DNA of 64,000 nt. It comes from Buxus sempervirens (Eukaryota > Streptophyta > Magnoliopsida > Buxales > Buxaceae). Location: positions 34,832,853 to 34,896,852 of the forward strand of contig OX387183.1 of NCBI GenBank assembly GCA_947561395.2, written 5' to 3'. This document shows positions 6,000-39,979 of the stretch, piece by piece. Numbering within the stretch: the first letter of the stretch is position 1; every line of letters begins with the position of its first letter. The notes under the pieces were generated by a model. The model worked only from the letters and a program-made list of their open reading frames with translations. It ran no database searches and had not been told where the DNA came from. The translations under genes and the position numbers were made by a program.

Positions 6000-6141
6000 G
6001 TATCCGAAATCAAAGTTTGGATAAAAGCTTTTGCCTCTATATCCGACAATAACTGTCGGATACAAGTTATTTTGCTTGTAACCGACAGATAATGTCGGAT
6101 ACAAAGGGCTATGTTGGTATCCGACCTGAGTTGCCAGATAC
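6000..6141. repeat. Palindrome array in the E1 LTR (4 units, 39-bp step)
   Basis: Four imperfect 25-bp inverted repeats start at 6000, 6039, 6078 and 6117, exactly 39 bp apart. Arms are of the type GTATCCGAC / GTCGGATAC with a 7-bp centre that is not conserved. The array lies upstream of the TATA box at 6312, so it is placed like a promoter or enhancer element. Function is inferred. Confidence 0.85.
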
Positions 6142-6912
6142 TAATGTTTTGCTGCAAAAATTGGAAAATTCTAAAAGTTTTCACTTTTTATTGTCTTATC
6201 CCTGTTTTAAGAGTGGGAATTCTCGAAAATAGCCTTAGGGTTTAAGTTGGTGGATTCTAGACATAATTTTGTGTCTACCATTAGGGCACCCCTTTTGCCC
6301 TAGCCTTTGCCTATAAAAAAGGAGGCCTCTCTTCAAACAAATGGCCAGAAGTTGGAGATTGAAGAGCTCCAAGTGAAGAAAAGAATACTTGCCTCACTGC
6401 TTTTAGAACTCTAGAAGGGAATCCCTGCCTCTTTGCTTTCAGAACTCCAGGTAAGCCTGGAACTCTTTTCTTTTCTAGTTTTAATTTCTAGAATTATTCT
6501 GTCTTCTACCTCTTCTGTAGAATAAGGCCTTTGAGTGTGATTGTTACCCAAATTTACTTCTAAGTACCTCAAGACTACTCTCTAGCCGTAAAATGTGAAG
6601 AGAGAGCTAGGAGAAAGGGAGACAGGTAGATCTGTAGGGCAGACCCCCATATGTGATAATCCTAGAAATGTATAGTTTTAATGTTTTGTTTAGGAGGTAT
6701 GATGATTTATTGATGAAATATAGAGGAATACAATAGATCTATGCAATTCATAGCATTAGATCTCGTTTTTCTTATATATTTCAATTTTTTACCTTGTTTT
6801 CTCCTTTTTTTATGCTTTTTGATGTTTTTAGTCATTTAGGCTAAGATCTTGGTTCTGCTATTGTCGATATGGTAGATCTGGGATCAGAAGCCTTCCAGTA
6901 ATCTCTAGGCTT

Positions 6913-7427
6913 CCATGAGGTGGTTTTGGAGTCATTTTTTATTTTTGAGAGAAGACCCTACGGTCTAAGTTCTCCCATTTTGATGTTTTTCATCAACGTG
7001 GGTATATTTGGTTTGATTTCTCTTATTTAATGAAAAATGTGGGATAGATCTATGGCCTGGATTGTTCAGATTCAGTTCTACATCATGAAGTGGTTTCTGA
7101 GTCATTTTTGGTTTTTGAGAGAAGACCCTACGGTCTAAGTTCTCCCCTTCTGATGTTTTTCATCAACGTGGGTATATTTGGTTTGATTTCTCTTATTTAA
7201 TGAAGAATGTGGGATAGATCTATGCCCTGGATTGTTCAGATTCAAGTCTGCATCATGAGGTGGTTTTGGAGTCATTTTTGGTTTTTGAGAGAAGACCCTA
7301 CAGTCTAAGCTCTCCCATTTTGATGTTTTTCATCAACGTGGGTATATTTGGTTTGATTTCTTTGATTTAATAAAAAATATGGGCTGGATCTATGTCCTGG
7401 ACTGCTCAGATTCAATTCTGCAATTTT
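6913..7427 (+). repeat. 170-bp tandem repeat, about 3 copies, in the LTR transcribed part
   Basis: The anchor GAGAGAAGACCCTACGG recurs at 6947, 7117 and 7287, giving a 170-bp period. Each unit carries the inverted repeat AGACC-CTAC-GGTCT. The solo LTR at 27434-29240 holds one copy of the same unit (near 28030-28140, opposite strand), so the unit was amplified in the E1 LTR. Confidence 0.85.
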
Positions 7428-7939
7428 TTGTAAAAATAAATTTTTTTTATATTTTATGCCTAGATTTCAAGGATTTAATTTAAAGCCTGATTTTTTAAGT
7501 TTTCATTTTAAATTTGTTTTCTTTTGATTTCAGTCAATCATGAAACCTCAGAAATGGCTTTTGTTTTCATAAAGAAGGATCTAGAATTAATTGGATCATT
7601 CACATGGAAATAAGCCATGTATTCTTTTGTTTTCTTTTACTTTGTTTTGATTTTTATTAACAAGCATTTTTGTAGCATAAACAACACTTGGCAACCACTT
7701 TGTGTGGATGAATAGGGGTACCTAACACCTTCCCCTAGTCATAATCTAATCCCCTTACTCATTTCTGGATTTTTTATTTTAAAGTAGAGTTATTTTTACT
7801 CTAGATTTGCCTTTTGTGCTTATTTTGATGATTTTTGTGTCCATTCACACCTTAAAATTGAATGATGGCGAATATTCCCTTTTACAAATCCCGTGTGATG
7901 ATTGGAAAGTTATAAGATTGATTTTTTCCATGTCTCACA

Positions 7940-8021
7940 GTGGCGACTCCATGTTTTTTTATTGAGCCCGTGTGATGATAAAAGGAAAGTCATTGAATTG
8001 ATTTTTTCCCCATGTCTCACA
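7940..8021 (+). repeat. Duplicated LTR tail preceded by a primer-site-like sequence
   Basis: Directly after the LTR end at 7939 comes GTGGCGACTCC, then a second copy of the LTR's last 50 or so bases ending CATGTCTCACA at 8021. The block adds 82 bp. It looks like an LTR that was lengthened past its primer site. Confidence 0.7.
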
Positions 8022-8871
8022 AGGAGGTCACAAGGGTAGGCCAAAGTTTCTTTCTAGATTCTTCCAACTCAATTCCAAGGCTTGAATTTGAGTAAATCTA
8101 TAAGTTTCGGAAGGTAAATAGGGGAGATCAAGTCTCCTAGAGAGAGGTATGAATGATAAATAAGGCTTAGATACCAAGCCTTTACAAAATTACGCAAATT
8201 GAACGTGTCCGCTTATAGCATGCAGATCTGCTCTGTCCGCATACTATATGCGACAAGACCAAACTGCACAATGCATGCGGACAAAGCCAATCCGCACAAT
8301 GTATGTAGGCAAGGCAAAATTAATAAAATCAGCATGCAGCAGTACTTATTTACATGTATCATTTAGTAAATGTCCTCGTATTTTTTAATTTCCAGTTACT
8401 TAAAATATTACATGTAAATAAGTAAACACACCCCCATTTGAATCCATTAAAAATAGTTCCAAACCCAAATTCCAAGTGAATAAAAAGTCAACTTTCCAGT
8501 TCAAGACTAAATTCCGGTCTTTCAAGTTCGGTAAAAAGATTCAACTTGTTAATACTAAGGTATTTGTCAAGATTTAAAGGCTCAAAAAATTCATTTATGC
8601 AATAACATTGCTAAAAACTTGATTATTAGGAAAAATTATCTTGAAATCTTGTCTTAGAAAATATTTCATTTTTGGGGGCCAAAAGTCAACAAAATTCAAT
8701 TGAAAAAGTTTGATTTTGCCCAAAATATTGAATTTGGGCCTTTTCCTTTGTGGTTTTGGATTCAAATGGGTTAAGGATCTCAAACCCAATGCTAAGAATT
8801 AAAAATTTTAATAAAATATTTCTTTCCTTCAAGATTTATAAAAAATCATGCAATTTTAGGGTGTCTACAAT
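8022..8871 (-). repeat. Truncated Tat-type LTR (U3 part)
   Basis: Ends GGGTGTCTACA at 8871, the reverse complement of a TGTAGACACCC LTR start. It shares blocks with the U3 of the E2 and E3 LTRs, such as the stretch near 8060-8150 that matches 16070-16190. Its palindromes are centred near 8216, 8244, 8273 and 8301, about 28 bp apart, with arms of the type TGTCCGCATA / TATGCGACA. E1 inserted into this LTR, so the rest should lie left of the window. Confidence 0.75.
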
Positions 8872-9712
8872 GCTGTAAAGAATGGGGGAGAAAGGCTTTA
8901 CAATATTGTAACCCTATATGTGTTCACATGGCCAAGGAGATGAACACTATCGTGCGATGCACACAACTATTAACTACATGCATTCCATATTTATTTGCGT
9001 ATGTATTTGTGGATTTTTGGTGTGTTTATTTCATATAGTTATTATATTTAGGATATACATGCATCCTAGGATTGAATTAATTGTATCAAAAAAATTGTAA
9101 TAATTACATAAAACAATTAGATTATTTATTTAATTAATTTTGTTGGCTTATTCTGCTAATCTAGGATTACCAATTGATATTGAGTTTGTGAGATGAAACC
9201 TACTGGGCATATTTGCTCACTCTTACTATTTTATAGGTATTTATGATGCAACATATGAGGAGCAGGATGATGCCTAGGAAGTGGACTTGATACGGCGTGG
9301 CTGACGTCGACAAGATCTACATAGAGTAGTATTTGTTTAGGGGTTTATTTTGATGTCTTAATAGTAGAGTAGGTTATTTACATGATTTTATATTATTGAT
9401 AGGGTTTATATATTATCAGGTTGATTTAATGTTTTATGTTCACTATGATATTATTTTAATTAATAGATGTGGATTTTAGTTGTCTTGCATGAGCAAGATC
9501 TTGGAATTTTTATATATTTGTTTTACTTAGAATTTATTTATGTAATGTTTTATACATCAATGCACTTGACAGCTGGGTTATCTGCTTGGGTTTTCACATT
9601 GGGGTGTGTGGAAACTGCAGTCATGTCCTAAGATCCCTATTACCCCATTGTCTTTATTTATTAATTATTAATATTATAGGGATATTATTCGTATAAATTT
9701 TAGGGCGTGACA
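8872..9712 (+). repeat. Probable 3' part of a chromovirus-type LTR
   Basis: AT-rich stretch ending TTTTAGGGCGTGACA at 9712, comparable in style to the minus-strand end (GGGGCGTTACA) of the solo LTR at 2097-5070. No coding domain is seen. The left end is cut by the LTR at 8022-8871. The family call is weak. Confidence 0.4.
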
Positions 9713-14158: not shown

Positions 14159-16590
14159 TGTGAGACATGGAAAATGTCACCTAAGGTGACCTCCTATATC
14201 GTCACAAAGGGATCGATAAATGTAAGAGTCGCCACCATCCAGGTTAAGGTGTGAATGGGAACCAAAGGGTTCATCTATGCCAAATAGAGCCAAAGTAGCT
14301 CTAATACAAGGAAAAATCCAGAGATCAGGTAAGGGGAATTATTTATGAGCGGGGGAAGGTGTTAGGCACCCCCACTCATCCGTATAAGACAGTTGCCACA
14401 TGCTTGCTCATGCTAAGGATTGTTTGCTAATTAAAAAAAGTAAACAAAGGATGCTTAAAATAATTAAGTAGAATGTATGTGATTATTACACATGAGTAAT
14501 CCAATGGATTTGGACTCTCCTCATGGATATATCACTTTAGAGCTTCATGAGTGAAGGAAAATCCAAGTAAAATTTGAAGAAAGCCAATTCAAGGCAAATC
14601 AAGAAAAATCAGATTATAGGAACTTGAAAGCTTCGATTAACCACAAATCACTCAATTTAAATCCAAATCACATGAAACCAAAGCCATTAGGAAGTTGGTT
14701 TGAAATAGAGTACTCAGTGAAAAAAAATTAGCTCAATCCGATTTAAGACAAGAAAGAAATCCACATCTGTACCTACTGTTGTAAATAAAAAAAAACGATG
14801 AGTAAGCAACTTGGAAACCTTATTTGTGGAGTCTGGCTCCATAAAAATACATGAAACTTTGCATAGATAGATGGAGTATGTGATGCCATCTTTCAAATGA
14901 AATAAACCTCACAAAAATCTCTATCCAGATGTGACTTGTATGCACCTTTGAACAGGCCTTGAAGATCACAGATTAGCCCAGGACTATGCTATTGAGCTGC
15001 TCTGAGTCAATCAAGCACACAGGTCACAAATCAGATCAAAATCTGTTGAAACCAATTGGAATGGAAAGTAGACTCCTCAAGGAAAATATAGAAATTGAAA
15101 TCACTCAAAACGGATTAAAGTTGAGCAAATTGTGCACCATCAAAGCGGCAAGTTCAGCAATCTGGGCTGAACTGACTTACAGACTTTGAACAGATGGTGT
15201 CAAAAAATGGCTCCATAAAAATGAGTAACAATTTCCAGATATAAACTAGACATGCTCATCTATCACATGTCTTTGGAATCACTCAAAAATTCATCTGGAG
15301 GATGAAGTTATAAGCATTCTAAGACAGGCCACAGATGCTACCCTGTTTTGAAGATTTTTGAAGAAAAAGCCAAAACTAATGCATGTGTGCAAGTGAATTT
15401 GACCAAGACACTTGGAAATAAAAAAAAAACAATCTCATGAAGTTCTAAAATTCATTCTAAAGCCAATAATCTCAGATTTCCCGTATTAAACATAGAAATC
15501 CAAGATCTAGCTTATCCTTGCAAAAATAGTGAAAAGTGTGCTTAGTGGTGGAAATCAATTCTCTAGGAGAAGGCTGGAATCCATTACTATTGAGAGCAAG
15601 GATTCACACATTTTCTCCAGAAACAAATACACAACCATCAGAAAAATCATCCATAGGCTCAAAATAACCAAATAGCACGCTCTTCATCATTTGTAGGATC
15701 TAAGCCTAGAGGATCCATTCCTACTTCTTTTTCCCAAGGCTCTTTCTTCACGTTTTACGGCTAGAGAGGATTCCCAGGTACTTTGGAAGAGGTTTGGGGT
15801 AGCAAAAATACACAAAATGGCCTTCCACTACAGAAAGGTAGAAGATGGGAGTTGGAATGTAAAGAAGGTGCTAGAAACTGAACTAGAACATTACCTTTTG
15901 TAGCTTGAGTACTTGAGGCAAAAATTCAGCAGAGTTTCTCCTCTTCTTGCAGAGCTTCTAAGCTTCAAAATTATCAGCCATTTGCAAGAGGAGGACCCCT
16001 CTATTTATAGGCACAGTCAAGGGTATAAGAGTCCCAAGGGTATGCCAAAAAACTCTTCTAGATTATTCCAATTCTCACTAAAGGCTTGAATTGGAGTAAT
16101 TTCGCAAGTTTCAGAGGGTGAAATAGGGAGTTCAAGTCCCTGAGAGAGAGGTAATCTGCGTAAATAAGGCTCAGAGATCGAGCCATTTCGCAAATCCCCG
16201 AAATAACCAAAACCGCATACACAGTGCGGTTTCCACAGACCGTCATTTTATGTGCGGTTTCTATGCAAATTCATCTCAATCGCATATACAGGGCGGTTCC
16301 AATTCAGTTACGCTCATCATGATTGCTATCGATGTGGCTCAACGGCCAAAGCTTCTAGAAGCCACGTGGCAGCTCACGCGAGAAGCATGAACATCAACCG
16401 TGCTGTGTATGCAGTTGCAACCGTACATACAGGGCGGTTGAGACCAAATTCTCAAAAACCGTATATTCAGTGCGGTTAGTACCATTCTTGAGTATTTTTG
16501 AGTGTTTGACACATGTCAAGGCTCAAATAAAACATTTAAAGTTCTTTTTGAGTGTTCTCTCATGTTGAAGTGCAATTTGGGGTGTCTACA
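14159..16590 (-). repeat. E2 3' LTR
   Basis: 2432 bp, TGTAGACACC to CATGTCTCACA on the minus strand. It has a TATA box (16002-16009, TATAAATA on minus), palindromes at 16211-16477, the leader motif CTAGCCGTAAAACGTGAAG near 15755, and an internal primer-site copy GTGGCGACTC at 14226-14235. The polypurine tract (CGAAGAGGGAGCAGT on minus) lies just inside, at 16591 onward. Nearly identical to the LTR at 42623-45048. Confidence 0.93.
16211..16477. repeat. Palindromes AACCGC...GCGGTT in the E2 3' LTR
   Basis: Several 21-22-bp inverted repeats with arms AACCG(C/T) / (G)CGGTT end at about 16231, 16259, 16298, 16416, 16439 and 16477. Many steps are 28 or 38-39 bp. They lie between the LTR start and its TATA box. 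The same set recurs at 44672-44940 in the 5' LTR. Confidence 0.82.
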
Positions 16591-16935: not shown

Positions 16936-17012
16936 AACCGTACTGAATGTGCGGTTTTTGACAATTTCAATCTCAACCGTTCTGTCTGTGCGGTTCTCTA
17001 GGTTGCATATAA
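16936..17012 (+). promoter_or_regulatory. Candidate promoter of the antisense PMD gene
   Basis: Two 21-bp palindromes of the E2 LTR type (16936-16956 and 16975-16995, 39 bp apart) are followed by a TATA-like CATATAA (17006-17012). A strong 5' splice site (CAA/GTAAGT at 17374) and an acceptor ending at 18059 would remove a leader intron just before the ATG at 18069. The order palindromes, TATA, leader matches the LTR promoter. Promoter activity is inferred. Confidence 0.6.
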
Positions 17013-20000
17013 CCGAGGGCGCGACTGCGACTTCTCACTTTACCTGTGCAAAACCTTGGAACTCCGGTGTTTTCTTTCTCCTCTTGCGACCGTGGTTTTT
17101 CTCTGGTCTTCATCCTTTCTTTTCCGATGAAGTCATTCTCCTTCCGTCGACTTCTGCTTTTCCGGTGGTTCTTCCACTCTGACAAGTGATCGACAACCTC
17201 CTGTGTTGGTGGATTCCCGCGAACTCTTGCCGCCTTACCACGACTCAGCCCCAGCTTCCTCATCGATCGAGGACTTTCTGAGTCCGCCAATCGTCCAGCC
17301 AGTCTCTTTTGGAGCTCCGGTGAGGTCACAGCTTCGATTGTTCTTTGCAAAGCTTTGATTTCAGCTACTACAAGTAAGTGGCCGAACCCTAGAACCTTCT
17401 TTATTCTCAGCCAATCCGAAAGCTGGTATTTTGATCTCATGATTGAATGCATGAATTTTACTTCTGGGTTTTGATTGAAAGGAATCCCTAATGTTCTTGG
17501 CTTGCTCACATTCTGATTATTGCCCTTTAGCTCTTGTCTGTGAACATGAACTTAGGCACATCACATATGAACCAATGTCTGGATGAGTACTAGATTTCAC
17601 TTGTTATTGTGCCTTGATTTGCCACATTGACTTTGTTGATTCCCTTTTGATCATGTTAGCACCATGCTTTGATGCATATCTGACTGCCTTTGCTCTCTTT
17701 TAAGTGCCTTGATGATGGTTTTTTTTTATGGATGCTTATGGCATTCTTAAAAAACTAATTTTTTTCTCTTCAACCTGCTGGTTTGCTCTGCCTGATTGGA
17801 TCCGTGTCATTGTAATAATCCCATTTTGGTCTGATTTGAAAATTCTGACCTTGGGGTGACTACCTGTGGGTCTGCCCTGGTGATAGAGAACACTTCTATC
17901 CAATTGTTTTAACTTGATCATCATATATTTCTGCTTTTACCTTGGGTGGGTCCAGTATCTTAACATGGACAGACTTGAACAGTTTTATGTTACTTTGAGG
18001 ACGCTTTGGTTACCTTTGGCTGTCTTCCATCTGTAAACCTGAAAAGGGAACAAATTCAGGATTTGTAGATGGCTCGCACACGTTGCACTTCCCGGGGTCC
18101 CGTAGATGAGCCTTCATCTTCGAGAGTTCGAAGGGACCCGGCCGATGTGGCATCTTCTTCTAGGGTCGAGCTGGATCTGATCTTTCCTCTTCCAGTAGTC
18201 TGGAGGTTTTAGATTCAGATTCTGGAGCATCAGGGGGTTCGCGAGAGCCGACCCCTGAGGTATTCTCTTTTCTTTTCAAAATCCAGGCCTTTCCCTTACA
18301 CATTTAACCTGACCCCATCCTGTTTGCATTTCTAGCCTGTCGCCGAGGTTCGAGGTCGCAGGGGAGCTCACCGCAGAGGTATGGCAGGGGCCCGGGCGAC
18401 GCGCGTTGCCATTCCTGCGGGGATAACGGATCAGATCCGAGATACCTCCCTTCTTCATGATCTGAGGACGCACCATTCAATGGGCGTTAGGGCTGACATT
18501 CCTCTTGTCTACCCGTCTTCTCATTATCGCGGGAGCTGGGCCCTTTTTGCTAAGACAGTGGCTGTATGTTCGACTCCCTTGCGTCGAGAGATGGGCCGTT
18601 TTGGGTTCGGCCCCTTCATCACCATCACCGGCGTTCGTCAGGATCGACCTCTGATTGCAGCCATGATGGAGCGGTTTTTTCCTGAGACCCTGAGCTTCCA
18701 TTTGCTTGATGTGGAGATTGGGATTCGTCCTTCTGTCTTCGCTCTCATCACCGGGATCAGGATGACTGGAGATGTCATCACTGAGTTGGATAGGCTGGCC
18801 GATTTGGAGATTGCCGAGCTTTTAGGATATGGGGAGATGCCAGTGGAGGCATGGGACAGGAGTAGGATTACTTGCATTTCCCGGACCTGGTTGAGGGAGA
18901 CCTTCCTGGAGAGGGGATATAGTACTGTGGCAGCGGAGCATCCCAGCTTCCCAGTGGCCTTCCGCTTCCTTTTCCTTTTGATTATGGGGTCGTGCTTCTG
19001 CTTGGAGGATACCACCTCAGTCAGCCCCCATTTCCTGAGTCTTCTCAGGGATCTGCCTCGAGCGAGGGATTATGCCTAGGGCCAGCTTGTCTACGGTACC
19101 CTATTGGCGGGCCTGCGGCGAGTGGTCTTTGGCCTGTCTTCTCCTAGAGGGGCTGGGGTTGGTTGCAGGTTTTTCTGGCCTTTTCTGCAGGTATGGATTC
19201 ATTTCTTTCTTTTTTTTTCTCTTTTTTCTTTCTTTTCTTCTTTTCTTCTTTTTTCCTTTTCTTTTTGCTTATCTTTTTTTTTGCTCTTCTTTTTATTCTT
19301 TTCAGTTCTTTGCTCGGGTCTATGTAGCCCATTTTCGCCCGACCTCCACATTGCCTGAGGGGACATTCCCTGTGGCCCGTAGATGGAGTCAGATTAGGCG
19401 CGACTCAGAGAAGAGTCGCCCTAGGTCGGCTAGGGCTCACCTGGACAGGACCTTTAGGAGAGAGGTAAACACTTTCCTCTTATTCTTATTTTTTCTTTTT
19501 CCCTTTTTTGCAAGAATCTGACATTCACCCTTGTTTATTTTCAGCTTTCTGTCCCTCGTCTAGATGGCCTTCATGATGAGTTGGCTTTTCAGCCGTTCGT
19601 GGATGAGGCGTTCGCTCTAGATCAGCAACGTCAGAGATACCCGTTCTTTATCGGGCAGCTGGGTAGCATATGGTACCTCAGCGAGTGCTTCTTCTTCCAG
19701 CACACCGGCGAGCTTCGGATCCCTGTGGCTCCTCCAGATACAGCACCTTTCACCCCTCCTGGTCCATTTGACCCAGCTCATTTTGGCGATTGGGAGGCTG
19801 GAGATGCCCTTTTAGCCGAGGGTGACTATGATGCCTGGTTCGGGCAGGTCTCAGTGGGTTGTCTTATACAGCCCATGCCCGTTCGAGGTGGAGTTATCGA
19901 GATCGAAGGGGTGGTGATCCACATATATAATACTACGGTATAAATCTCCTCCTGCTCCACTCTTTTTAGCTTCTTCCTTGTTTGAAGTTATTGACATCCT

Positions 20001-20857: not shown

Positions 20858-21337
20858 TCTGCAGGAGATAAACTTAGATTAGGATTATTTTCCTTCTATA
20901 TCTGATATCTGTATATATAAACTGGTGTATGAACTTGCATTTGTATAAAAGAGAAAATTGTTCCTTTTTTGCTTATTTTTTTTTTGGCTTTTATTTATGT
21001 TTATCATGTTATGATTGTTATACAGGTAACAGGTATCCTTGGGAAACATGACTTATCAAAAGAAAGAGGAAAAACTATTTTTGTGCCAAAACCGCACATT
21101 CAAGGCGGCTGTGCAAGAACCGCATTTGTTCCGCGGTTTTTAAACTCTGCGGAAATGCAACCGGACATTGAGCGTGGTTCAGGCACAACCGCTCTGAGTA
21201 TGCGGTTTTTGCCCTTTTGTGATTTTAAAGCCGCGAATCACGGGCAGAACATCACTTTGACGTATTGCTTAGGTCAGAAACCCCATTTTCGGTGATTTTC
21301 TCTCTCCTAGCTGCCTTTAATCCACTTTTGACCATTA
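20858..21337. promoter_or_regulatory. Intergenic region with four palindromes before the DUF7745-like gene
   Basis: The first 200 bp look like the 3' end of the upstream gene (AT-rich, pyrimidine run). Four 21-bp inverted repeats of the E2 LTR type start at 21090, 21118, 21159 and 21187, with steps of 28, 41 and 28 bp. The last ends 130 bp before the ATG at 21338. No clear TATA box is seen between them and the ATG. Confidence 0.6.
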
Positions 21338-24028: not shown

Positions 24029-27000
24029 TTAAGGGAAATATTGCTTGACCATGTCAGAGTTGATTGGCTCAGGAAAGTCTTTCCCATCCATTTCTGATAA
24101 GATGAGAGGGCCTCCTGATAGGACCTTCTTCACCATATAAGGTCCTTCCCAATTTGGCTTAAACTTTCCACGAGGGTCCTCCAGAAATGGTAATATTTTC
24201 TTTAAAACCAAATTACCCACTTGGAAATCTCTGGGCTTCACCTTCTTATTATAGGCTCTGGCCATTCTCTTTTGGTACAATTGGCCATGACAAAGCGCAT
24301 TCAAACGCTTTTCCTCTATTAAGTTGAGTTGCTCATATCTAGACTGAACCCATTCAGCTTCTTCAAGTTTTGTTTCCATAACCACTCTCAGTGATAGGAT
24401 TTCCACTTCAACAGGTAAGACTGCCTCCGTTCCATAAACCAAGGAATACGGCGTTGCCCCAGTAGAAGTTCGGATTGAGGTTTTGTAAGCATGGAGAGCA
24501 AATGGTAGCATTTCGTGCCAATCACTATAACTCACCACCATTTTCTGAATTATTTTCTTTATGTTCTTATTTGCTGCCTCTACTGCCCCATTAATATTTG
24601 GCCTGTACGGGGCTGACTTATGATGAGTTATCTGAAACTGCTCACACATCTTCTTCATATCCTTGTTCTTAATATTTGAAGCATTGTCTGAAACTATGGC
24701 ATTTGGCAATCCATAGCGACAAATTATGTTGTGCTTCAGAAACTTAAGAACATGGTTTCCTGTGATATTTGCATATGAGGCAGCTTCAACCCACTTTGTG
24801 AAATAATCGATTGCCACGAGGATGAACTGGTGTCCATTTGACGCTTTTGGAGAAATCATCCCAATGACATCAATACCCCACATAGAGAAAGGCCATGGCG
24901 AGGTCATGCTGTGTAGCTCACTTGGTGGTGCATGCTTATTATCAGCATATATTTGGCACAAATGGCACCTCTTAATATGTACGCAACAATCGTGCTCCAT
25001 TGTGGACCAATAATATCCCAATCGCAGTATTTTCCTTGCAAGCATGTGTCCATTCATATGCGGCCCACAAACTCCTCCATGCACTGTTTCTATCAATCTT
25101 TCTGCTTCAACCTTGGTGACGCATCTGAGTAGGACATTATTGTAAGATCTTTTGCACAACTGCCCCCCCACTTAGGAGGAATTACCCTGCTAACCTCTGT
25201 ATCGTTCTCTTTTCAGTAGAATTAGCACCTTCTGGAAAACCCTGATTATTCAAGAAATTCTTGATATCTTGAAACCATGGTATTTCTGTTTGTTGCGCTC
25301 CTTCTAGAACAAGACAGTAAGCTGGCTCGTCTCTGACTTCAATTTCGAGTGGTTGGATGTCTATCCCTTCTGGAATGCTAACCATCGAAGCCAATGTTGC
25401 CAAGGCATCTGCAAATTGATTCTTAGACCTTGGCATATAGCTAAAAGAAATTCGAGTAAATTTGGTACTTATTTCTTCCAAATACTGGTGATATGGGATC
25501 AACTTGTGATCTTTGGTTTTCCATTCACCAGTTGTTTGGAAGATGATAAGACTCAAATCCCCATATACGTCAAGTTTTTGAACATCATGATCTAGAGCGG
25601 CTTGTAATCCAATTATACACGCTTCATACTCTGCGATGTTGTTCATGCACTGAAACCTAAACTTCACTGCGATTGGGATATGCGAACCATCCAGCTTCAC
25701 TAGTACTGCGCTGATTCCATTTCCATTCATATTTGCAGCCCCATCGAAGAACATCTGCTAGGAGTCTTCATTTTCCTCTTCTTCAGCAAATAAGATAGCC
25801 TCGTCAGGGAAATTTGTCTTAAGAGGCTGATAATCTGGTAACGGATGCTCAGCTAGATGATCAGCGATTGCCTGACCTTTGATTGCTTTCTGAGTGACGT
25901 AGGTTAAGTCAAATTCTGAAAGCAAAAGCTGTCATTTTTCCGTTCTACCAGTTAAAGCCGGCTTTTCAAACAAATACTTTAAAGGATCCATCCTTGAAAT
26001 CAGCAAAGTTGAATAACTTAAGAAATAGTGCCTAAGCCTCTGAGTTGCCCAGACCAAAGCACAGCAAGTCTTTTCCAAAGGCGAATATCTCGTCTCATAA
26101 TCTGTGAACTTCTTGCTCAAATAGTAGATAGCATCTTCTTTTCTGCCTGTTTCATCATGCTACCCCAATACACATCCCATTGATGTTTCTAAAACCGATA
26201 GATACAGAATCAATGGTTTTCCTGGAGTTGGTGGTACTAGAACAGGGGGATTTAACAGATAATCCTTTATTTTATCGAATGCTTGGTGGCAATCCTCATT
26301 CCATATAGTTGGGTTGTTCTTCCTTAGAAGCTTAAAGATCGGTTTGCAAATAGCAGTGAGTTGTACTATGAACCAGCTAATGTACTGAATTCTTCCCAGA
26401 AAACCCCTAACTTATTTTTCTGTTTTAGGAGATGGCATCTCGAAGATTGCCTTTGCTTTAGATGGGTCTATCTCAATCCCTCTTCTGCTTACAATGAATC
26501 CCAATAATTTACCTGACGTGGCTCCAAAAACACACTTTGCTGGATTAAGCCTTAAACTGTATTTCCTTAAACGGTCAAATACCCTCTTTAGGTTAATCAA
26601 GTGGTCATCTTCTTCACAAGACTTGGCGATTATGCCATCTACATAGACCTCCATCTCTTTGTGGAACATGTCAAGAAAAAGGGCCGTCATGGCTCGCTGA
26701 TACGTTGCCCTGGCATTCTTCAGTCCAAAGGGCATGACTGTGTAGTTGAAAGTTCCCCAAGGCGTGATAAAAGCAGTTTTCTCTTGATCTTCCTTTGCCA
26801 TCTTGATTTGGTTATATCTGGAAAAGCCATCCATAAATGAGAACAAGCTGTGCACTGCCGTGTTATCAACCAAGATGTTGATGTGTGGCAAGGGAAAATC
26901 GTTCCAAGTCTTTGTAATCTAAACACATCCTGACTTTTCCATCCTTTTTTGGAACCGGGACTATATTAGCTAACCAATCATGGTATGTGGAAACCGCCAA

Positions 27001-27433: not shown

Positions 27434-29240
27434 TGTGAGACATGGGAAAAAATCAATTTCCAATGACTTCCTCAATCATCACACGGGATTAAATTAAACA
27501 AAGAGTCGCCACCATTCAATTTTGGTGTGAATGGACACCAAAATATTAAATAAGCACAAAAGGCAATTTTAGGGTAAAAATAACCCTCTAAAAAAAACAA
27601 CCAGAGATGGGTAAGGGGATTAGGTTATGAACAGGGGAAGGTGTTAGGCACCCCTATTCATCCACACAAGGTGGTTCCCAGGTATTGTTCATGTTAAAAA
27701 TAAAAGAAAAAGCTTGCTATAAAAATCATGAAAAATCATAAAAAAAAAGACAAAATTGTATGGTTTTTTCATACGAATAGTCTGATTGATCCAGAACTCT
27801 CAAATATGATCATACCATTCCTAGGGTTTCATGATCAAAACAAAATTAAGATAAAATCAAATAAAATCAATTTAAAGTGAAAAATCCAAAAATCTGGCTT
27901 CAAGTCAAATTCTAGAAATCTAGAAAAATATGATTTTTATAAAATATTTCAAAATTAAATTTGAATAGTCCAGGATATAGGTATAGCCCAAATTTCACAT
28001 TAAATCAAGAAATAAAAACCAAAAATACCCACGTTGATGAAGAATATCAAAAGGGGAGAATTTAAACCGTAGGGTCTTCTCTCAATAATAAAAACGATTT
28101 AAAAACGACATCATGAAACCCTAGAATTTACTTTCAGGCTTTTGGATTCAAATCTACCATATTGATCATGATAAATCCAAGATCCTAGCCTAAAATCACA
28201 AAAATCACGAAAACAGTGCTATAGGTGCAAAAGTGGTGAAAATCCAAGTTTTAGAAAAAGGTGAGGATCTCATGCTATAAACATCATGGATTCATGTATT
28301 CATTCAGATTCATCATAAAAAGCATTAAAACATGATCAGGATATTCAAAGCAGCCACATCTCACAGATTAGAGCACATGGAGGTCTACCCTACGGATCCA
28401 CCTGTTCTCTTTTCTCCTTGCTCTCTCTTCACGTTTTACGGCTAGAGAGGATTCTTGAGGTACTTGGAGATAAGTTTGGTTACACCAAACACAATCAAAG
28501 GCCTTATTCTATAAAAAAGAAGAAAAACAGATATGGGGTTCTATTCTAGGGATCCACATGTTCTCTTTTCCCCTAGCTCTCTCTTCACGTTTTACGGCTA
28601 GAGAGACTCTTGAGGTATTTAGAGACAAGTTTAGGAATACTAGATACAAAAGATGGCCTTATTCTACAGCAATAGAGATGATCCTATTACTTCAGGAATT
28701 GAAGACAGAAAATAAAAGGGAAAAGGGACTTACTTGGATTGAGCAAGCAAGGTAGCAGGGGTTCCTCTCTTCTCTTGGAGCTTCTTAGACTTCAAATTTT
28801 CATGGCCTTTTGCTTGAGGAAAGGCCCTCTATTTATAGGCAAACCCAGGGGCAAGGCTGGTTTAGAAGGATATATCCTGATCCTCAGGATAGAGTGAAAA
28901 ACAGAGATAATGCCCATCCATAGCCAACCAAGGTGGCTTCAGCGAATAAAAGACATAATTCGCTCGTAAAAAGGGATATTGGACTAAAGATAAAGCTCGG
29001 AAATCGAGAGAAGAATAAAACTCGCATGAGTCTTTAGTGACCGTAAATGCATTACGGTCCACTGGTGCCCGTATTACCAATACGGGCACGCCTGACCGTA
29101 GAAAGATTTTGGGCGCGACCGGCCCGTGAATAAAATACAGGCAAACTTTGTCAGTTTTTATGCATTTTTTACCTGTTTTAAGCTTTAATTACATGTTTTT
29201 ATTACTTTCTCATTTTGTAATGCAATTTGGGGTGTCTACA
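27434..29240 (-). mobile_element. Nested solo LTR in E2 (Tat-type)
   Basis: 1807 bp, TGTAGACACC to CATGTCTCACA on minus, flanked by the target duplication CTTGC (27429-27433 and 29241-29245). TATA box at 28830-28837 (minus). It carries the leader motif CTAGCCGTAAAACGTGAAG twice (near 28430 and 28585), one copy of the 170-bp unit seen in the E1 LTR, and its own palindromes at 29039-29089 (arms GACCGTAA / TTACGGTC and GTGCCCGTA / TACGGGCAC). It interrupts the E2 coding region. Confidence 0.92.
29039..29142. repeat. Palindromes in the solo LTR 27434-29240
   Basis: Two clear inverted repeats are centred at 29049 and 29077 (28 bp apart). A weaker one, with arms GCCCGT / ACAGGC, is at about 29122-29142. 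The second is a 25-bp near-perfect palindrome. Arm sequences are specific to this LTR. Confidence 0.78.
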
Positions 29241-30038
29241 CTTGCTCTAATTCGGTCTGAAGATATGGTTCATAAGTAGTTTGGACCATTTTGAAAGCCT
29301 TAGATTTTCTAAAAAAAGTTGAAAAATCTTTTTGGGTTTTTTGAGAACCTTCTAAAGAGGCTTTTCCTGAAGATGAAGGTTCATTAAGACCTTCAGGAAA
29401 AGGGCAATCCTATAATGGAGTTTTTTTTTGAGGCCGCAGCTGATTGCCAACCATATGCGGCCTCAAATGTCAAAGGGATTTCCTCCCAATTTTTTAAAAC
29501 AAAGCCTTCTGGAGCAGGTTGTATAGTGCAAACCCGCTCCTCCTCAAGCTCTTGATCTGATACCATCATTACCGGATTTGAAAAACTGCCATTTTCTGCT
29601 TCGGGGCTGAGTTCAGATGTGACTCCATCTGGGATCTTGATCGAGGTCCAGTCAATAAAAGGAACCTAATTTTCTGCTTTCTCTTTTCCTTCATCCTCTG
29701 CCATTGCGAAGAATGCCCCATCCTCTTCTGTGAAGTCCTGTTGCTCTCGTGGCAGTGGCTCAGGCTCACCCATGGCTTTAGGTGCAGAAGTGGGTGAAAG
29801 TGGGATGAAAGGTTGAAGGGTTGAGGTAAAAGGTTTTTTGAAAGGATTATCATTGATGTATGGAGGTTTGGAGGAATTCACTGGAGGAGCTGATTGAATG
29901 GTATGAGAAGGCTTCGGAAAAGTTTCCCTTAAATGAGGGAATTTTTCTTGATTCTTTTCCTTTTCATTGCCATTCTCTTTCTGTTGTCCCCTTTTCCATC
30001 TCCTTATCTTCATTCCTAGTCCTGCTCGTGGGACCAGC
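29241..30038 (-). pseudogene. E2 linker region between protease and RT (fossil)
   Basis: On the minus strand this matches 62430-63200 of E3, a Pro-rich and acidic linker (for example NPFKKPFTSTLQPF and EEDGAFFAMAEDEG, with E3 counterparts NPFQKPSVPTLQPY and SEDIGAFFAMIEGE). It lies between two nested solo LTRs. No enzyme motif. Confidence 0.75.
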
Positions 30039-33000
30039 TGTAAGCACCTCATTTTTGCACCTCCCAAAATGCAGAAAATGAAATTTTAATTGAAAAAGTC
30101 AAACTTGAGAAAGTCAAACTTGAGAAAGTCAAAAAGTTGACTTTTTTATCTAGTGCAAATCAGTCACCATGCTTCCCACCATTGGAAAGAGGATTCCGAT
30201 ACGGTTCTAATGGAACAGAGTTTGTTCAAATCGGAGTCCAAATGAAGAAGTTATGGACTGGTCAAATCTGAGAAAAGCAGAAATTGACTTTCTGCTAAAC
30301 CCCAGATTAGCTACCCCATTTGATACCAGCAGAAAGAGCATCTCGACACGATTCCAGCGCAACTGAGTTTTCTGGAATTGGAGTCCCGGATGAGGAAATA
30401 TGAGCAAAATTGGCTCCGGGACGCGGCCCGGCACTTTTGCTAAAAAAACTCGAATTTGCTGCTAAACTGAAGTTCAGTGGATAGGGAATCTCGCACTGAT
30501 TCCAACGCCACTAAGTTTGCTAAAATCGGATATCAGATGAGCGAGTTGTGGGCGGTTAAAGTTTCTGAAAATCTGCACACGTGGAAAATAGTGAAGAAAA
30601 AGCAGCAAAGTAAAAGGTTTTGAATTAAAAAAATAATATTTTTGCTAAAAATCTAATTAAAGTATTTAAAATAAAAGAAAAAGAAAAGAAAATTAAAAGA
30701 TGCATGTGCATCCAAAACCTAAAACAAAAATCTTAATAAAATAATAATAAAAGTACAATATGAATTAAATAAAGAAAAAGGAAAATGAAAAAATATGATT
30801 GGACGAATTCTCCCATGTGGAGAATTCGTTCAAGCAAGCTTGGCCTCTAAGTTTACTTGGAGGCTAAGTCTTGAAGCAATCATGGCTTTTGTTTAAAAAA
30901 GGGGCATGAATTGAAAAGATTAAGGCTTTGGTGATAGAGTGCAAAAGTAATTGATTTTTAGTCAAGGCATATAAAAGGCAACCCTAGCACCCTTTCTCAT
31001 GGACGGCTCATTCTTGTTGAGGGCTCTGACCTTTCTTCTCCCCTCTCCTTCCTTCTCCCCTCTCCTCTAAGCCCTTGCTTGCTTGCCCATAACCCCAAGA
31101 ACACCCCACATTGAGCTTCTTTTTCTCTCATCACTTCTTCCTCTCCACTCTCACTCAAGCAAAGGGGGAAGGCTTGCTGTTGGTGGTGCCAAGAGAGGCT
31201 CCAGCCTTGTTCCTAGCTCCAAGGAGGCTCCACACAGCTTCAACCTAGGTTTCAAGCCCAAGGTGAGCTCCCTTAGGTCATTTTCCTTGATCACATATGT
31301 AAATATTGATCCATTTGAAGCAATAGGATTTTAATCATGTGATATGATTTTTGTTATGGGTGGTATTTGTATCCGAATCCAAGATGTGTGCATGATTTCG
31401 AGTGTTTTAAAATCGTTGTTTGTTTGATTTTAATATTGTTGTTATTTATTTACAAGGGAGCATGTTTCCCCTCGTTCTAATCCAATGTATCCCTCTATGT
31501 AATCCCTCTTCTTTATCCTTTCTTTAGACATTTTTTTCTAGGCTAAATGAATATGTTACATGGATGTGATCATGTTATGGATTGTGTATGATGCATGTTG
31601 AGTTCTCTTTTCTTTTCTTATTTGTACAGGGTTTCATCATTATTTTTGGTGTGCATGAGATCATCCATCATTTAGAACATGTATGTCATCATTTTGGGAT
31701 TATGAGAATAGTTTTTTTTTACCGTTTTTCTTATGTTTCATCACTTTTTTTGTAAGTCCAAGCTGCTGTTTTCGACCATAAGAAATCAGTCTCTTTCGGC
31801 TTTGGACATATCACACAAGTATGTTTATACTTTCACACATTAGAAGCATATCTAGGTGCTTTATATATGTTACTGTTTTGTGTAGTTTGCATGCATATAA
31901 AACCTGTTTTTCAGCTCTTAATGGTGTGTCTTGTTATCAAGTTTGGTTTTGACTTAAAGCATGCTTATTGAAGCCCTATGTTGCTTGATTTTCTTCTATG
32001 TATGTTAATGATTGGTTTGCAATAAAAAGGAACCAAAATAGTGATGTTTGAATCCCTGTTTATTCATTGAATTGGCCAAGGAAAGGGAGAAGGTAATCCC
32101 TAACCTTTTCCCTTCTTGTTGATTTTCAAAACCTCAAAGAAGAAGCAAGGTGGCTCTTCTCCGAACCACTGTGGGCTCACACAGGAGCCCACACAATCCC
32201 TGGAACACCCCAAAGAGCCTAAAAACCCAACCCCAATGCAAAAATCCGAGAAAAAGGCTTCTGTGGGTTGATCCGGCAACTCAAGCCGGATCAACTGAAA
32301 CCCCTGTGTAGCCAGCTAAAGGTGCCGGATACACTGAGCCTTGTGTGTAACCGGCATCTTAGGCTGGCTACACTGCCAGACTGCATTTTTGCCATTTTCT
32401 GATCTTGTGCTGTTTTTTGGTTTGTTTGATCAAATCCGGGTGAACCAGTAGGGTTTTCGGGTCACCCGGAAACCCAAGGTGGGCCTTGGACCGACCCAGT
32501 CCAAATTGATTTCCGGTGGGCCTTCCAACGGGGCCCACCAAGCCCAACAAACCCATTTTTTTGCTAAATAAAGACAATCAAATTAATTGAGTAGGCCGAA
32601 CCCATGGAGGCCCACCAAAGCCCATTTTTGAAGCATGTTGATCATATTTATGCATGGTTTGGCCGAGGCAAAGGGCAAGGCCTATCGGGCCCACCAAGCC
32701 CATTAACTAACTAAGGTTAGGGTTTCTAAACCCCAACTCAAGAAGCCTTGGCTTTCAAGCCCAAGCCCAGGTAAAGGGCCCCAAGCCCCATGCTTGGGCC
32801 ATTTTGGTGAAGATAAATCAAAGATAAATTAAATCATTTGGCAACCAGCTGTGTGGCCCACTCAAGGGCCCACAAACCAACCCGGCCCACCTTTGCATGA
32901 AAATCACTTTAAATTCAACTTAAACTTTAAAGTAAAATCAATCCATTTGAACCAAGCCCAAAGGGCCTCTCAGGCTAGACCGAGGCCCACCAAGAGACAC

Positions 33001-33434
33001 GTGGGCTCAACCAAGCCCACCAAGAAACCCGCGGGCCTTCCAATGGGGCCCGCCCACTCAGACTCACATCACTTTAAGCTAAGAAAGATAAAATCAAGTA
33101 AAGGGACCCACACCACTTTGGCGGTCCCGCCAAGACTTAACCAAGTAGAATGCTGGAATAGGAATCGGGTGAGTGAGAGAACAAAGAGTTGACTCAAACC
33201 AGGAAACTATGGGACCCATCATCCGACGGGGCGGATTGGGGTGTCTACGGACTTCCCCAGACCGCAACCGAGAACCTACTTAGAATCTCAAGCCGCAGAC
33301 CAAGCCTTAGTAGAAGAACTTAGGCACCCAGGTGTCTGCCTGCACCCCATCATGCAGTGGCGACTCCAAACAAATCCCGAGGCACGCATCATTTCGCGTG
33401 CGCTTCGTCGTACGACCGAAATCGGGTGCACACA
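30039..33434 (+). mobile_element. Nested solo LTR in E2, a different Tat-type family
   Basis: 3396 bp, TGTAAGCACC to GGGTGCACACA. The target duplication is CCAGC (30034-30038) and CTAGC (33435-33439), one base apart. The undisturbed site in E3 (GGGACCAGCTTCT near 63195) confirms the insertion point. TATAAAAG at 30970-30977 supports plus orientation. It is rich in GGCCCACC-type sequence (32500-33130), carries three 29-bp palindromes at 32267-32373, and has GTGGCGACTCC at 33356-33366 near its end. Frames such as 32851-33192 are not supported as genes. Confidence 0.88.
32267..32373. repeat. Three 29-bp palindromes, 39-bp step, in the LTR 30039-33434
   Basis: Inverted repeats at 32267-32295, 32306-32334 and 32345-32373, each starting exactly 39 bp after the last. 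Arms are GTTGATCCGGC / GCCGGATCAAC in the first and GTGTAGCC or GTGTAACCGGC with matching right arms in the others. Unlike the other LTRs, they lie downstream of the TATA box. Confidence 0.85.
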
Positions 33435-36687: not shown

Positions 36688-37695
36688 AGAAAACTATTAG
36701 TATCCCATTAAATCATGTTTACACACCTATGAATGCAGGCTTGGTGAACATGAGTTTGGAACTTGCATTATTTTCATTTTTTGCTTTTTTGGATTTTGGT
36801 TAACATAACCTTATTAAAAAGGAGGGTGATTGATACGAAAAAGATCAATCAAAAGAATTGTTGGAGCATTTTAGGGCACCCAACGTCCCACAGAAAGATG
36901 ATGTGCCTACAGTAAAAGCCTGTAGACAAATCAAGACTTGGAATCACGCAAGCTTCCAAGGGCTTATGAATTGGTTCGTATAAAAAAGACTAACCAATAT
37001 TGGAAAATTCTAGGGCTTCTTACATATCCCACAAAAGATGATGTGCCTACAGTAAAAGCCTATAGACAAATCAAGACTTGGAATCACGCAAGCTTCCAAG
37101 GGCTTATGCTTTGGAATTAAGGCTTCCACAACCTCCTGAAATTACGCAGGCTTTCAGGGGCCTATGAGTTTCTAAATTAAGGCTTTAGAAGGCCTATGAA
37201 GTTTTTGGAAAAGTCTGGAATTCCAGGCTTCCAGGGTCCTATGAGTTTCTAAATTAAGGCTTTAGAAGGCCTATGAAAAAATCTAGAATTTCAGGCTTCC
37301 AGGGTCCTATGAGTTTCTAAATTAAGGCTTTAGAAGGCCTATGAAGTTTTTTGAAAAATCTATAATTTCAGGCTTCCAGGGTCCTATAAGTTTCTAAATT
37401 AAGGCTTTAGAAGGCCTATGAAGTTTTTTGAAAAATCTGGAATTTCAGGCTTCCAGGGTCCTATGAGTTTCTAAATTAAGGCTTTAGAAGGCCTATGAAA
37501 TATTTTGAAAAATCTGGAATTTTAGGCTTCCAGGGTCCTATAAGTTTCTAAATTAAGGCTTTAAAAAGCCTATGAAATATTTTGAAAAATCTAGAATTTC
37601 AGGCTTCTAGGGTCCTATGAGTTTCTAAATTAAGGCTTTAGAAGGCCTATGAAATATTTTGAAAAATCTGGAATTTCAGGCTTCCAGGGTCCTAT
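36688..37695 (-). repeat. E2 leader minisatellite, first part (77-bp unit)
   Basis: Between the primer site and gag. The anchor GAGTTTCTAAATTAAGG (or a near match) recurs at 37166, 37243, 37311, 37388, 37465, 37542 and 37619, a 77-bp period with one 68-bp step. Before it, a longer direct repeat of about 70 bp starts at 36898 and 37037. The array is split by the solo LTR 37696-39979 and resumes at 39980. Confidence 0.88.
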
Positions 37696-39979
37696 TGTGA
37701 GACATGGGAAAAAATCACCGGAGTGATCATCCCTCCGTCAACACACGTGCTCAACGCAAAATTGGGAGAGTCGCCACCATTCATGATTTTGGGGTTAGAA
37801 TGGACACCAAAGAGTTCAAAATAAGCAAAAAGTGAAAAAAGAAGCATTCTAGGATAAAAATAATCATACTTGAAAATCAAATCCAGAGATGGGTAAGGGG
37901 ATTAGATTATGAACGGGGGAAAGTGTTAGGCACCCCCATTCATCCACACGAAGTGGTTGCCAAGTGTATATTCATGCAAAAACAAAGTAAGAAAGCTTGC
38001 TAAAAATCATGAGAAACCTTGAGAAAGGTCAAATGTATGATATCTCCACATGAAGATCTAAATGGATTTTAGATCCTCTCTTATGTCAATATCATTTCTG
38101 GAATATCTCAAAAGATGGAAATCAAAGCACAAGTTGCTAAAAAACCAAGTTGAATCAAATCCGGAAAATTTGGTAAAAAGTTTGCCATTTGCCTTAAAAT
38201 CATTCAAATCCAATTCTAAATTGAACCAAACCAAATCCATTTGAAAGATTAGGGTAAATAAGAGTCTCATGCAAAATTTCACTTCATTTCGATAAAAATC
38301 CTAGGAGTTATGCTCCTTTGAAGTTGCTGCTGGGGATTTTTAAAAGTGATAAGTGGGCAACTTTGGAAAATTGTCTAGAAAACTCCACAACATAAAAATC
38401 CACGAAATTTGGTGTGATTGAAGTTTGTATTGCCATATTTCAACAGAAACTAGCCTCATACAAAAATCCCTTCGGATGTGCCTTGGGTGGTCTCCCGAAC
38501 AGGCCCCGAAGATCACAGATTTACCCAGAAAAGTACAAATGAACAGTTCTGAGTAAATCGGCTACCAATAATTCAAATGGGATCCAACAATTATGAAACT
38601 AACTGGATTTGAAAATAGACTCATAAAGGAGTACTCAGAAATAAAAATCACTCGAATCGGACTTAAAACGAACACATGGCGGTCCGTCGAAGTGACAAGT
38701 TCTGTACTTGGACCTGAACTGTCCACTTATCTTCGACAGAGAGGTGTCAAAAATACGCTAGATAGAAATTTGTGAAATTTGGTGGACATAAACTAGACAG
38801 CCTCACCTTTCCCATGGTTCTGGAATCGTCCCAAAATTCATCCGGATGATAAAGTTATGGGCGTCCAAAGTAAGGGTACAGGTGCTGTCAAGCTAAGCCA
38901 CTTTTGAAGAAAACCAAATCCGAAAATTGATAAAATGTGTGTGATCCGTGTGAGATGAATCCAAAACCTTTGAAAAACATTTTAAAACACTCCAGAATTT
39001 GATTGAGGCCATTTATTGGAGATTTATCACAATGAATGTAATAAATCCCCAAATGTGAGCCTATTCACCAAAAAGTGTAATATGTGTGCAAGAGTGAAAA
39101 ACCAAGCAAGATCAATACAACAATATATCATGCATATAGATTCAACAAAATAGGTTCTAGCATAGCCTAGGGTTCCGTTCCATTATCGTTTCCCTCTGTT
39201 CTCTTTAAGATAATCAAGGGTACTTTGAATATGGAACGGTTTACAATCAATCAAAAAGGCCTTATGCTACATAGGTTCTAGCACTAGGGTCAATCCCCAG
39301 TCTCGTTTCTCCTAGATCCGCCTTCACGTTTTACGGCTAGGGGAGTCTTGAGATACTTTGAGCCGGGGAAGGATTTCCACACATACAAACAAGGCTTTAC
39401 ACTACAGAAAGGTAGAAGAAGAGATCTAGATCTAGGAATGTAAAGACAGAAAATAAAAATAAAAGTTGAGGCTTACCTGAGTTCTGGAGGCGATTCCACA
39501 GCGGTTTTCTTCTTCTCTTGGAGTTCTTCTTTGCGAGAATTCAAAACAAGAGTTGTGTTCCATTTGCTCAAGGAGGAGGCTCCTATTTATAGGCAAAGGC
39601 TAAGGTCATTGGTAGACACAACTTAATGTCTAGAACCCCTCCAACCTTAACCCTAAGGTCATTTCCGAGATTTCCCCTCATTTAATGAGGGACATGATGG
39701 TAACAAGTGATTTCTCTCGGAAAACCCTAATTTTGAGCAAACTTAAGGTATCCGGTATATCAGACCGGATAAAAAAGGGCCTTAAGGTATCCGGTACATG
39801 GTACCGGATACACTAAGGCTCACATGTATCCGGTATGAGTATCCGGATACAGGAAGGAGTACTTGTATCCGGATTGAGTATCCGGATACAGGTAAAAGTT
39901 TATTTTCTTCAAATTCTGTGCTGGCTTTCCAGGAGATAATGATTTTTGATGATTTTTTGTGCAATTTGGGGTGTCTACA
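37696..39979 (-). mobile_element. Nested solo LTR in the E2 leader (Tat-type)
   Basis: 2284 bp, TGTAGACACC to CATGTCTCACA on minus, with the target duplication CCTAT (37691-37695 and 39980-39984). TATA box 39584-39591 (minus). It has an internal primer-site copy GTGGCGACTC at 37768-37777, the leader motif near 39332, and four palindromes at 39748-39889. It contains no coding domain. Confidence 0.93.
39748..39889. repeat. Palindrome array in the LTR 37696-39979 (4 units, 39-bp step)
   Basis: Four 25-bp inverted repeats start at 39748, 39787, 39826 and 39865, exactly 39 bp apart, with arms of the type GTATCCGG / CCGGATAC. They lie between the LTR start and its TATA box. Spacing and unit length equal those of the arrays at 6000 and 63748, although the arms differ. 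Confidence 0.88.

Follow-up and report, generated by a model that had tools for sequence, protein, structure and literature searches.

A 64,000-nucleotide stretch of the Buxus sempervirens genome (contig OX387183.1, positions 34,832,853 to 34,896,852 of the forward strand, GenBank assembly GCA_947561395.2), called the window here and numbered from its first letter, is plant-like DNA that forms a nest of Ty3/gypsy Tat-clade retrotransposons. Their long terminal repeats (LTRs), and the interior of one element, E_A, carry arrays of a palindromic unit that proved to be a 17-bp dyad, CCG-N11-CGG, present in 28 exact copies. Judged from the sequence, these arrays are genuine, functional-looking and probably bound by protein.

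Reverse transcriptase (RT), RNase H domains and integrase were recognised on the minus strand, both in E_A and in a related element at 54-63 kb. The gag match of E_A fell below the Pfam cut-off. LTRs ending in TG...CA are accompanied by 5-bp target-site duplications (TSDs) of GTTAC in E_A, CCTAT at the solo LTR 37696-39979 and CTTGC at the solo LTR 27434-29240, although such ends and TSDs are general LTR features and not specific to Tat. The two E_A LTRs are 96.2% identical over 2421 aligned sites, and the LTRs share a start word, TGTAGACACCCCAAATTGCAC, with 0-5 mismatches among them. In the related element RT_RNaseH and RVT_3 lie in a single open reading frame (ORF), followed by integrase H2C2 (59883-61106), and in E_A the RVT_3 match at 25182-25757 is a second RNase H. 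The Tat assignment rests on these two RNase H domains (the related element has both in its ORF, E_A has the second), since an additional RNase H besides the RT-linked one marks that clade in the available text of PMC6317226. The elements and arrays are as follows.

14159-45048, minus strand: E_A, a Tat-clade Ty3/gypsy element with nested insertions; RT, integrase and RVT_3 RNase H matches
14159-16590 (3') and 42623-45048 (5'), minus strand: E_A LTRs, TSD GTTAC on both sides
16213-16475, minus strand: E_A 3' LTR array, U3 side, AACCG arms; exact units 16213, 16421 and 16459, decayed units 16280 and 16398, N12 unit 16240
44674-44933, minus strand: E_A 5' LTR array, AACCG arms; exact units 44742 and 44917, decayed 44674, N12 44702, N7 44883
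16938-16993: E_A internal array beside the 3' LTR; units 16938 and 16977, 39 bp
21092-21205: E_A internal array; units 21092, 21120, 21161 (decayed) and 21189
23413-23524: E_A internal array between the integrase end and an antisense ORF; units 23413 (decayed), 23441, 23480 and 23508 (decayed), steps 28, 39, 28
40934-41016: E_A internal array; units 40934, 40962 and 41000, steps 28, 38
6004-6137, plus strand: array of the E1 LTR (5927-7940); four units at 39 bp, TATCCGAC arms, two exact and two decayed
39752-39885, minus strand: array of the solo LTR 37696-39979; four exact units at 39 bp, TATCCGG arms, two inner types
56216-56271, minus strand: array of the LTR 53997-56360; two units at 39 bp, TATCCGA arms, one exact and one decayed
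63752-63885, plus strand: array of the LTR from 63645, which is cut by the window end; four units at 39 bp, TATCCGAC arms, three exact and one decayed
29041-29140, minus strand: array of the solo LTR 27434-29240; four units, steps 28, 27, 28, two exact and two decayed
8209-8280, minus strand: array of the 8.2-kb LTR fragment; three decayed units, steps 28 and 27, TGTCCGC arms
32273-32367: 32.3-kb array; three units at 39 bp, CCGGC arms, one exact and two decayed

An initial sequence-only reading had described arrays in four LTRs. Its four 39-bp units in the E1 LTR (6000, 6039, 6078, 6117) and in the solo LTR at 37696 (39748, 39787, 39826, 39865) were placed correctly, and to these our analysis adds the arrays of the LTRs 53997-56360 (minus strand) and 63645 (plus strand), both E_A LTRs, the four E_A internal arrays and the 32.3-kb array. 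The LTR fragment at 8022, which aligns to the E_A LTR, does hold an array with TGTCCGC arms, made of three decayed units at steps of 28 and 27 bp. Likewise, the solo LTR at 27434 has the two further arm types that had been reported (GACCGTA and GTGCCCGTA), at steps of 28, 27 and 28 bp. The E1 and 37696 LTRs, taken at first for different families, are related: beyond the array they are 71% identical on the downstream side, and GTATCCG recurs in most units of both. Their common 39-bp step is therefore at least partly a matter of descent. Together with the LTRs 53997-56360 and 63645 they make up the F1 group, with TATCCG arms.

Against the 28 exact dyads, 100 shuffles of the window gave 1.38 on average and never more than 5. 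When the distance in CCG-Nk-CGG was varied from 0 to 40, the counts rose to a sharp top at k = 11; the next highest, 11, 8 and 8 at k = 37, 36 and 39, are partly echoes of the step between units. Among all trinucleotide pairs with gaps of 0-60 and at least 10 cases, CCG-N11-CGG ranked second behind AAA-AAA at gap 7, and first once homopolymer pairs were set aside. The exact copies are spread over 12 loci (the four F1 LTRs, the two E_A LTRs, the four E_A internal arrays, the 27434 solo LTR and the 32.3-kb array), so that dyads occur in every LTR family recognised in the window, in the 8.2-kb fragment in decayed form only. Outside the LTRs that we listed there are 11 exact dyads against 1.39 expected, and a chance origin is rejected by this count, the shuffles and the pair ranking. 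In the LTRs the arrays lie near the 5' end, on the U3 side as oriented by the integrase, with the first unit 77-115 bp in. They differ between related families and occupy parts that are non-coding as judged from ORFs of at least 150 amino acids, save that the 16.9-kb array is overlapped by a minus-strand ORF (16973-17551) without a Pfam match.

Units were selected on CCG and CGG only, and the complementarity of the bases beside them is thus a free test of symmetry. These flank tests, namely the second pairing table, the covariation and the family-level vote, used the 28 exact units. The first inner position forms a Watson-Crick pair in 21 of 28 (0.75, against 0.26 when shuffled) with all four pair types represented, and the first outer position in 26 of 28 (0.93 against 0.47) with three. 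Over an 11-pair structure including the core, 81.5% of pairs are standard, G-U included (64.1% shuffled), and covariation is 0.438 against 0.158, with slid controls at or below 0.163; positions 1 and 2 pair less than expected. The two bases flanking CCG differ between families, being mostly A/C in E_A, T/A or T/G in F1, T/G at 32.3 kb, A/T or C/T in the 27434 LTR and T/C in the 8.2-kb fragment. When each of six family groups was given one vote at each of seven positions, 37 of 42 votes matched, a value reached in none of 200,000 shuffles (joint p at most 5e-6), although position 3 alone was not significant (3/6, p = 0.40) and positions 10-12 gave p = 0.067 each. Thus the claim of a constant unit geometry with changing core-adjacent bases was borne out, and these bases tend to change symmetrically. 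That each family has its own arms holds for the flanks, but all families keep CCG and the four 39-bp LTRs mostly keep TATCCG.

The first pairing table and a count of unit centres were based instead on a hand-made list of 35 units. It omits the decayed units 16280, 16398, 21161, 23413, 23508, 8209, 8264, 29096, 29124 and 44674, the N12 and N7 units 16240, 44702 and 44883, the rows judged spurious (55307, 40910, 41025, 16329 and 44791) and rows offset by 14 bp. A centre AYTCA, which gives units a direction, was seen in F1, E_A and the 32.3-kb array (for example at 56216, 39869, 40934 and 32273).

Spacing between units is also constrained. Across 29 chosen steps the gap from CGG to the next CCG was 22 bp in 15, 11 bp in eight, 10 or 21 bp in four, and 24 and 6 bp once each; ten of the fifteen 22-bp gaps come from the four homologous F1 LTRs. 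The lists were drawn up by hand from exact and decayed units, leaving out 16213, 16280, 44674, 44883 and 44917 and excluding the off-rule steps of 67 and 118 bp (E_A 3' LTR) and 175 bp (5' LTR); 44703 in them is the N12 unit 44702. Steps of 28 and 38 or 39 bp mix inside single arrays, as at 23.4 kb, and step length is therefore not a family mark, contrary to the sequence-only reading. Because gaps of 11 or 22 bp recur and mix in this way, the 28- and 39-bp steps amount to one preference. At 10.5 bp per turn they correspond to 2.67 and 3.71 turns, so that the angle between neighbours is nearly equal in both cases, but neighbouring dyads do not lie on one face of the helix as had been supposed. 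The arrays of three F1 LTRs show no net length difference, despite 77 gaps in 1036 aligned sites downstream of the array between the E1 and 37696 LTRs.

Comparison of homologous LTRs separated the parts of a unit by their rates of change (inner arm, positions 3-5). The LTRs at 63645 and 37696 have a 107-bp downstream flank that is 87% identical without gaps; their cores agree at 22 of 24 sites and their outer arms at 31 of 32, whereas the inner arm agrees at only 5 of 24, the centre at 10 of 20 and the spacer at 17 of 36. The inner arm differs as a block across all four units, and its pairs are complementary in 9 of 12 cases in the 37696 LTR and in 10 of 12 in the 63645 LTR. For E1 and 63645, which share an arm type, the flank is 78% identical and the agreement is 22/24 (core), 29/32 (outer arm), 21/24 (inner arm), 9/20 (centre) and 16/36 (spacer). 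For E1 and 37696, with the downstream flank at 71%, it is 22/24 (core), 28/32 (outer arm), 8/24 (inner arm) and 11/36 (spacer). The expectation that arms change faster than neighbouring LTR sequence while retaining symmetry is accordingly true of the inner arm only, since spacers are also fast and the core and outer arm are the slowest parts. Neither independent divergence of the two arms nor random spacing is the overall picture. Spacers changed quickly in every LTR comparison, which makes recombination between arrays a possible route of change. Unit 39830-39846 of the 37696 solo LTR has one inner arm of each neighbouring type, suggesting recombination between units at the dyad centre.

The E_A LTR pair differs at 91 of 2421 sites overall; in a core and arm comparison that scored five units, 6 of the 30 core sites had changed and none of the 38 in the outer arms. 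Among unit rows with one mismatch, 17 of 18 are C-to-T or G-to-A changes (14 of 14 without the four spurious rows 16329, 44791, 40910 and 41025), and the CpG observed/expected ratio is 1.07 in the array pieces against 0.48 in the window. Cores thus decay easily once inserted; that every family seen here nonetheless keeps them speaks for selection acting on active copies.

We consider it reasonably likely that the arrays act in cis as DNA sites to which a symmetric protein dimer binds, presumably in a regulatory role, and that selection maintains them, with flanks specific to each family. Each unit, being two-fold symmetric, would be read by one such dimer, each subunit contacting CCG and the adjoining one or two bases to its left and right; the dimer itself would set the offset of 14 bp from one half-site to the other. 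Adjacent dimers, mostly an extra 11 or 22 bp apart, would have the same relative rotation and could bind cooperatively. Core and spacing would be held by selection across families, and the core-adjacent bases would be replaced on both sides together, by which related families may come to use distinguishable sites. Co-evolution of each family's arms with its own putative factor, as the sequence-only reading had it, is plausible. Stem and loop lengths vary among units, but the CCG-CGG distance rarely does, and this near-constancy favours a dimer bound to DNA over hairpins.

Several observations weigh against this interpretation. All copies come from one window of one species, and many are homologous, so that they represent some 6-7 independent groups at best. 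Short stretches of the E_A internal arrays resemble one another (at most 71% identity over 92 bp, E 3e-11), and the arrays may therefore be old duplicates. The family groups were set by hand, and three of the six votes are single units. Two of the five measures taken on the pairs do not exceed shuffles: pairs changed on both sides number 8 against 7.1 (73/500), and further pair types 24 against 22.0 (120/500). At the first inner position the 15 exact E_A units have C-G in seven, T-G in six, and C-A and T-A in one each; symmetry in E_A is imperfect, as T-G is non-complementary. The asymmetric centre AYTCA occurs in 13 of the 35 hand-listed units, where 0.21 would be expected. The E_A LTR arrays are less regular, with steps of 23, 67, 118 and 175 bp outside the rule; one of their units is N12 in both copies (16240, 44702), and unit 44883 of the 5' LTR is N7 although its counterpart in the 3' LTR is N11. 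In addition, the F1 arrays fold strongly as RNA on either strand (z -6.8 to -13.5), and the N-terminal part of an antisense ORF considered below, the DUF7745 ORF, was not found in two other elements.

The elements may instead have borrowed a CCG-core reader of the host. Different families would then follow different host transcription factors, and the arrays would be stress- or tissue-responsive and not self-encoded. This is possible, though we would expect it to be wrong somewhat more often than right. AP2/ERF and LBD proteins are examples of host factors that read CCG-core sites, and E1 unit 6082 contains ACCGAC, which we take to be the DRE core. That LTR arrays persist in elements in which a search found no N-terminal portion of the antisense gene also fits a host reader, as do the matches of Sirevirus boxes to stress-related factor sites in PLACE, described in the available part of PMC2829016. 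Most flanks (ACCGC, TCCGG, CCCGT), however, fit no single host motif. The strict N11 dyad is a further difficulty, as we know of no plant factor with such a site type.

Candidates for a self-encoded regulator are two antisense ORFs of E_A:

21338-22093, plus strand: antisense ORF with DUF7745 (PF24924, E 3.3e-18) and PF10536 below cut-off (E 2.9e-7); scanned from stop to stop as 21332-22093, with the ATG at 21338
18336-19079, plus strand: second antisense ORF, plant mobile domain (PF10536, E 8.3e-9, just above cut-off)

The 21.1-kb array ends about 130 bp upstream of the ATG of the DUF7745 ORF, and an array lies about 1.3 kb upstream of the other. AACCG arms are common to the E_A LTRs and all four E_A internal arrays, and the 16.9-kb array is homologous to the E_A LTR array (82% over 67 bp). 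The shared arms, with arrays upstream of the antisense ORFs, would suit a regulator encoded by the element. The failure to find the N-terminal part of the DUF7745 ORF in the two other elements speaks against such a regulator, as does the short similarity among the internal arrays, which could be duplicates. In its fullest form, the Tat-clade antisense ORF would encode a dimeric regulator of the plant-mobile-domain type that binds CCG-N11-CGG both in the LTRs and in the region of its own promoter, and subfamilies would split specificity by symmetric changes at the two CCG-adjacent bases, each regulator serving its own family. It would be a retrotransposon counterpart of VANC or of retroviral Tat. 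We regard this specific version as unlikely. A search of the PDB with the E_A antisense ORF gave no relative up to E 1, and its predicted structure (mean pLDDT 37) was unusable and was set aside. The Pfam scan of five further ORFs of the window gave no match. In the viral and genome contig collections the LTR-start pattern had 0 matches, and an integrase search gave 6 and 14 pattern stretches, respectively, and no confirmed relative.

For maize Sireviruses a role of the palindromes at the RNA level has been proposed, with stem-loops in the transcript either feeding small-RNA silencing or resisting it; we hold this to be quite improbable here. RNA folding was scored on both strands against 60 shuffles. 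Besides the F1 arrays, the 32.3-kb array folds strongly (z -10.3 and -8.3), and the 21.1- and 40.9-kb arrays of E_A are intermediate (z -5.0 to -6.4; -4.1 to -6.4 with the 27434 LTR array included). Small RNAs moreover concentrate on Sirevirus palindromes in the sections available of PMC5311732 and PMC10760457. On the sense strand, however, the arrays of the two E_A LTRs, those at 16.9 and 23.4 kb and that of the 8.2-kb fragment barely beat shuffles (z -1.1 to -2.5; -3.0 to -5.6 on the opposite strand), and hairpins do not need the constant CCG-CGG distance that is kept while stems and loops vary.

Neutral turnover of tandem repeats, in which an ancestral palindrome was duplicated and homogenised and its symmetry and spacing are functionless relics of recent spread, receives equally little credence from us. 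It would agree with the array being among the least alignable parts of homologous LTRs, with spacers that diverge more than flanks and with the recombination suggested by the hybrid unit 39830, but within F1 arrays spacers are 36-42% identical and core plus outer arms 81-100%, the reverse of recent duplication, while mutable CpG cores are retained in each family seen and the same AACCG arm stands at dispersed internal sites of one element.

Some further features of the locus were noted. About 3.5 kb of E_A (29960-33434), containing the 32.3-kb array, does not align to the related element at 63 kb and has a minus-strand LTR-start-like word with 5 mismatches at 33249. The solo LTR 37696-39979 is inserted into 77-bp tandem repeats of E_A (37147-37695 and 39980-40256). 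At 7929-8033 the end of the E1 LTR runs into TGGCGACTC, similar to the opening of the sequence behind the E_A 5' LTR; a second LTR-end copy comes next, beside the truncated 8.2-kb fragment, and this junction is possibly a recombination scar. A cytochrome P450 coding stretch (46160-47146; PF00067, E 8.9e-15) lies just beyond E_A.

Among known systems, Sirevirus RM boxes, as set out in the available text of PMC2829016, are alike in being palindromic with CCG/CGG cores, CpG-rich, element-specific and present in many copies. Sireviruses have eight or more boxes in each element, the majority of them in the upper LTR half; F1 LTRs here have 2-4 units each and E_A has about six per LTR plus the internal ones. 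Extra Sirevirus boxes lie inside the element upstream of the env ORF, those of E_A upstream of an antisense ORF. The Sirevirus core, in our interpretation of the Table 3 consensus, is CGG-N4 to N6-CCG (absent in Tnd-1), in contrast to CCG-N11-CGG, and the preference for 11- or 22-bp gaps is a feature of the present arrays, unlike Sirevirus boxes. Sireviruses are Ty1/copia elements, whereas the order here (RT, RNase H, second RNase H, integrase) is that of Ty3/gypsy; element type and core polarity together rule out Sirevirus membership. VANDALs are DNA transposons. They also have short tandem motifs in non-coding parts that differ between related families, and co-evolution of these motifs with a DNA-binding protein encoded by the element itself has been proposed (PMC5735166, in the part available). 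The VANC21 motif, whose protein is known, is nine bases (YAGTATTAY) and not a dyad of spaced half-sites. Retand and Ogre are likewise Tat-clade elements with extra, often antisense, ORFs; 57% of Ogre elements have a plant mobile domain and 23% of Retand elements have Transposase_28, and a DNA-binding regulatory role has been suggested for the TRP28 proteins of Retand antisense ORFs (PMC11963269). The available parts of these reports (PMC11963269, PMC6317226) describe no LTR palindrome array or target site. We regard VANC motifs as the nearest functional analogue and Sirevirus boxes as the nearest kind.

In Gal4-type sites of fungal Zn2Cys6 proteins, too, a dimer reads a pair of CCG/CGG half-sites separated by a constant N11, but their polarity, CGG-N11-CCG, is opposite and to our knowledge the protein family does not occur in plants; a Gal4-like protein was rejected on these grounds. 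Auxin-response-factor sites, pairs of TGTCGG at a spacing of 7-8, fit only F1 units with TCCGAC arms, and at other spacings, and were dismissed as an explanation of the arrays in general. CCG-N11-CGG, in three spellings, was not found in the literature searched, and the titles and opening lines of abstracts among the matches listed describe no such arrays in Tat-type LTRs, although a differently worded report may exist.

Should the geometry prove general across genomes, CCG-N11-CGG repeated at 11- or 22-bp gaps would give a one-line search pattern marking Tat-type LTRs, and the half-sites that a binding factor reads would be defined. A second superfamily would then show the palindromic CCG/CGG box layout of Sireviruses, and both the role of the extra antisense ORFs in Tat-clade plant elements and the way in which related element families divide regulation would become testable.

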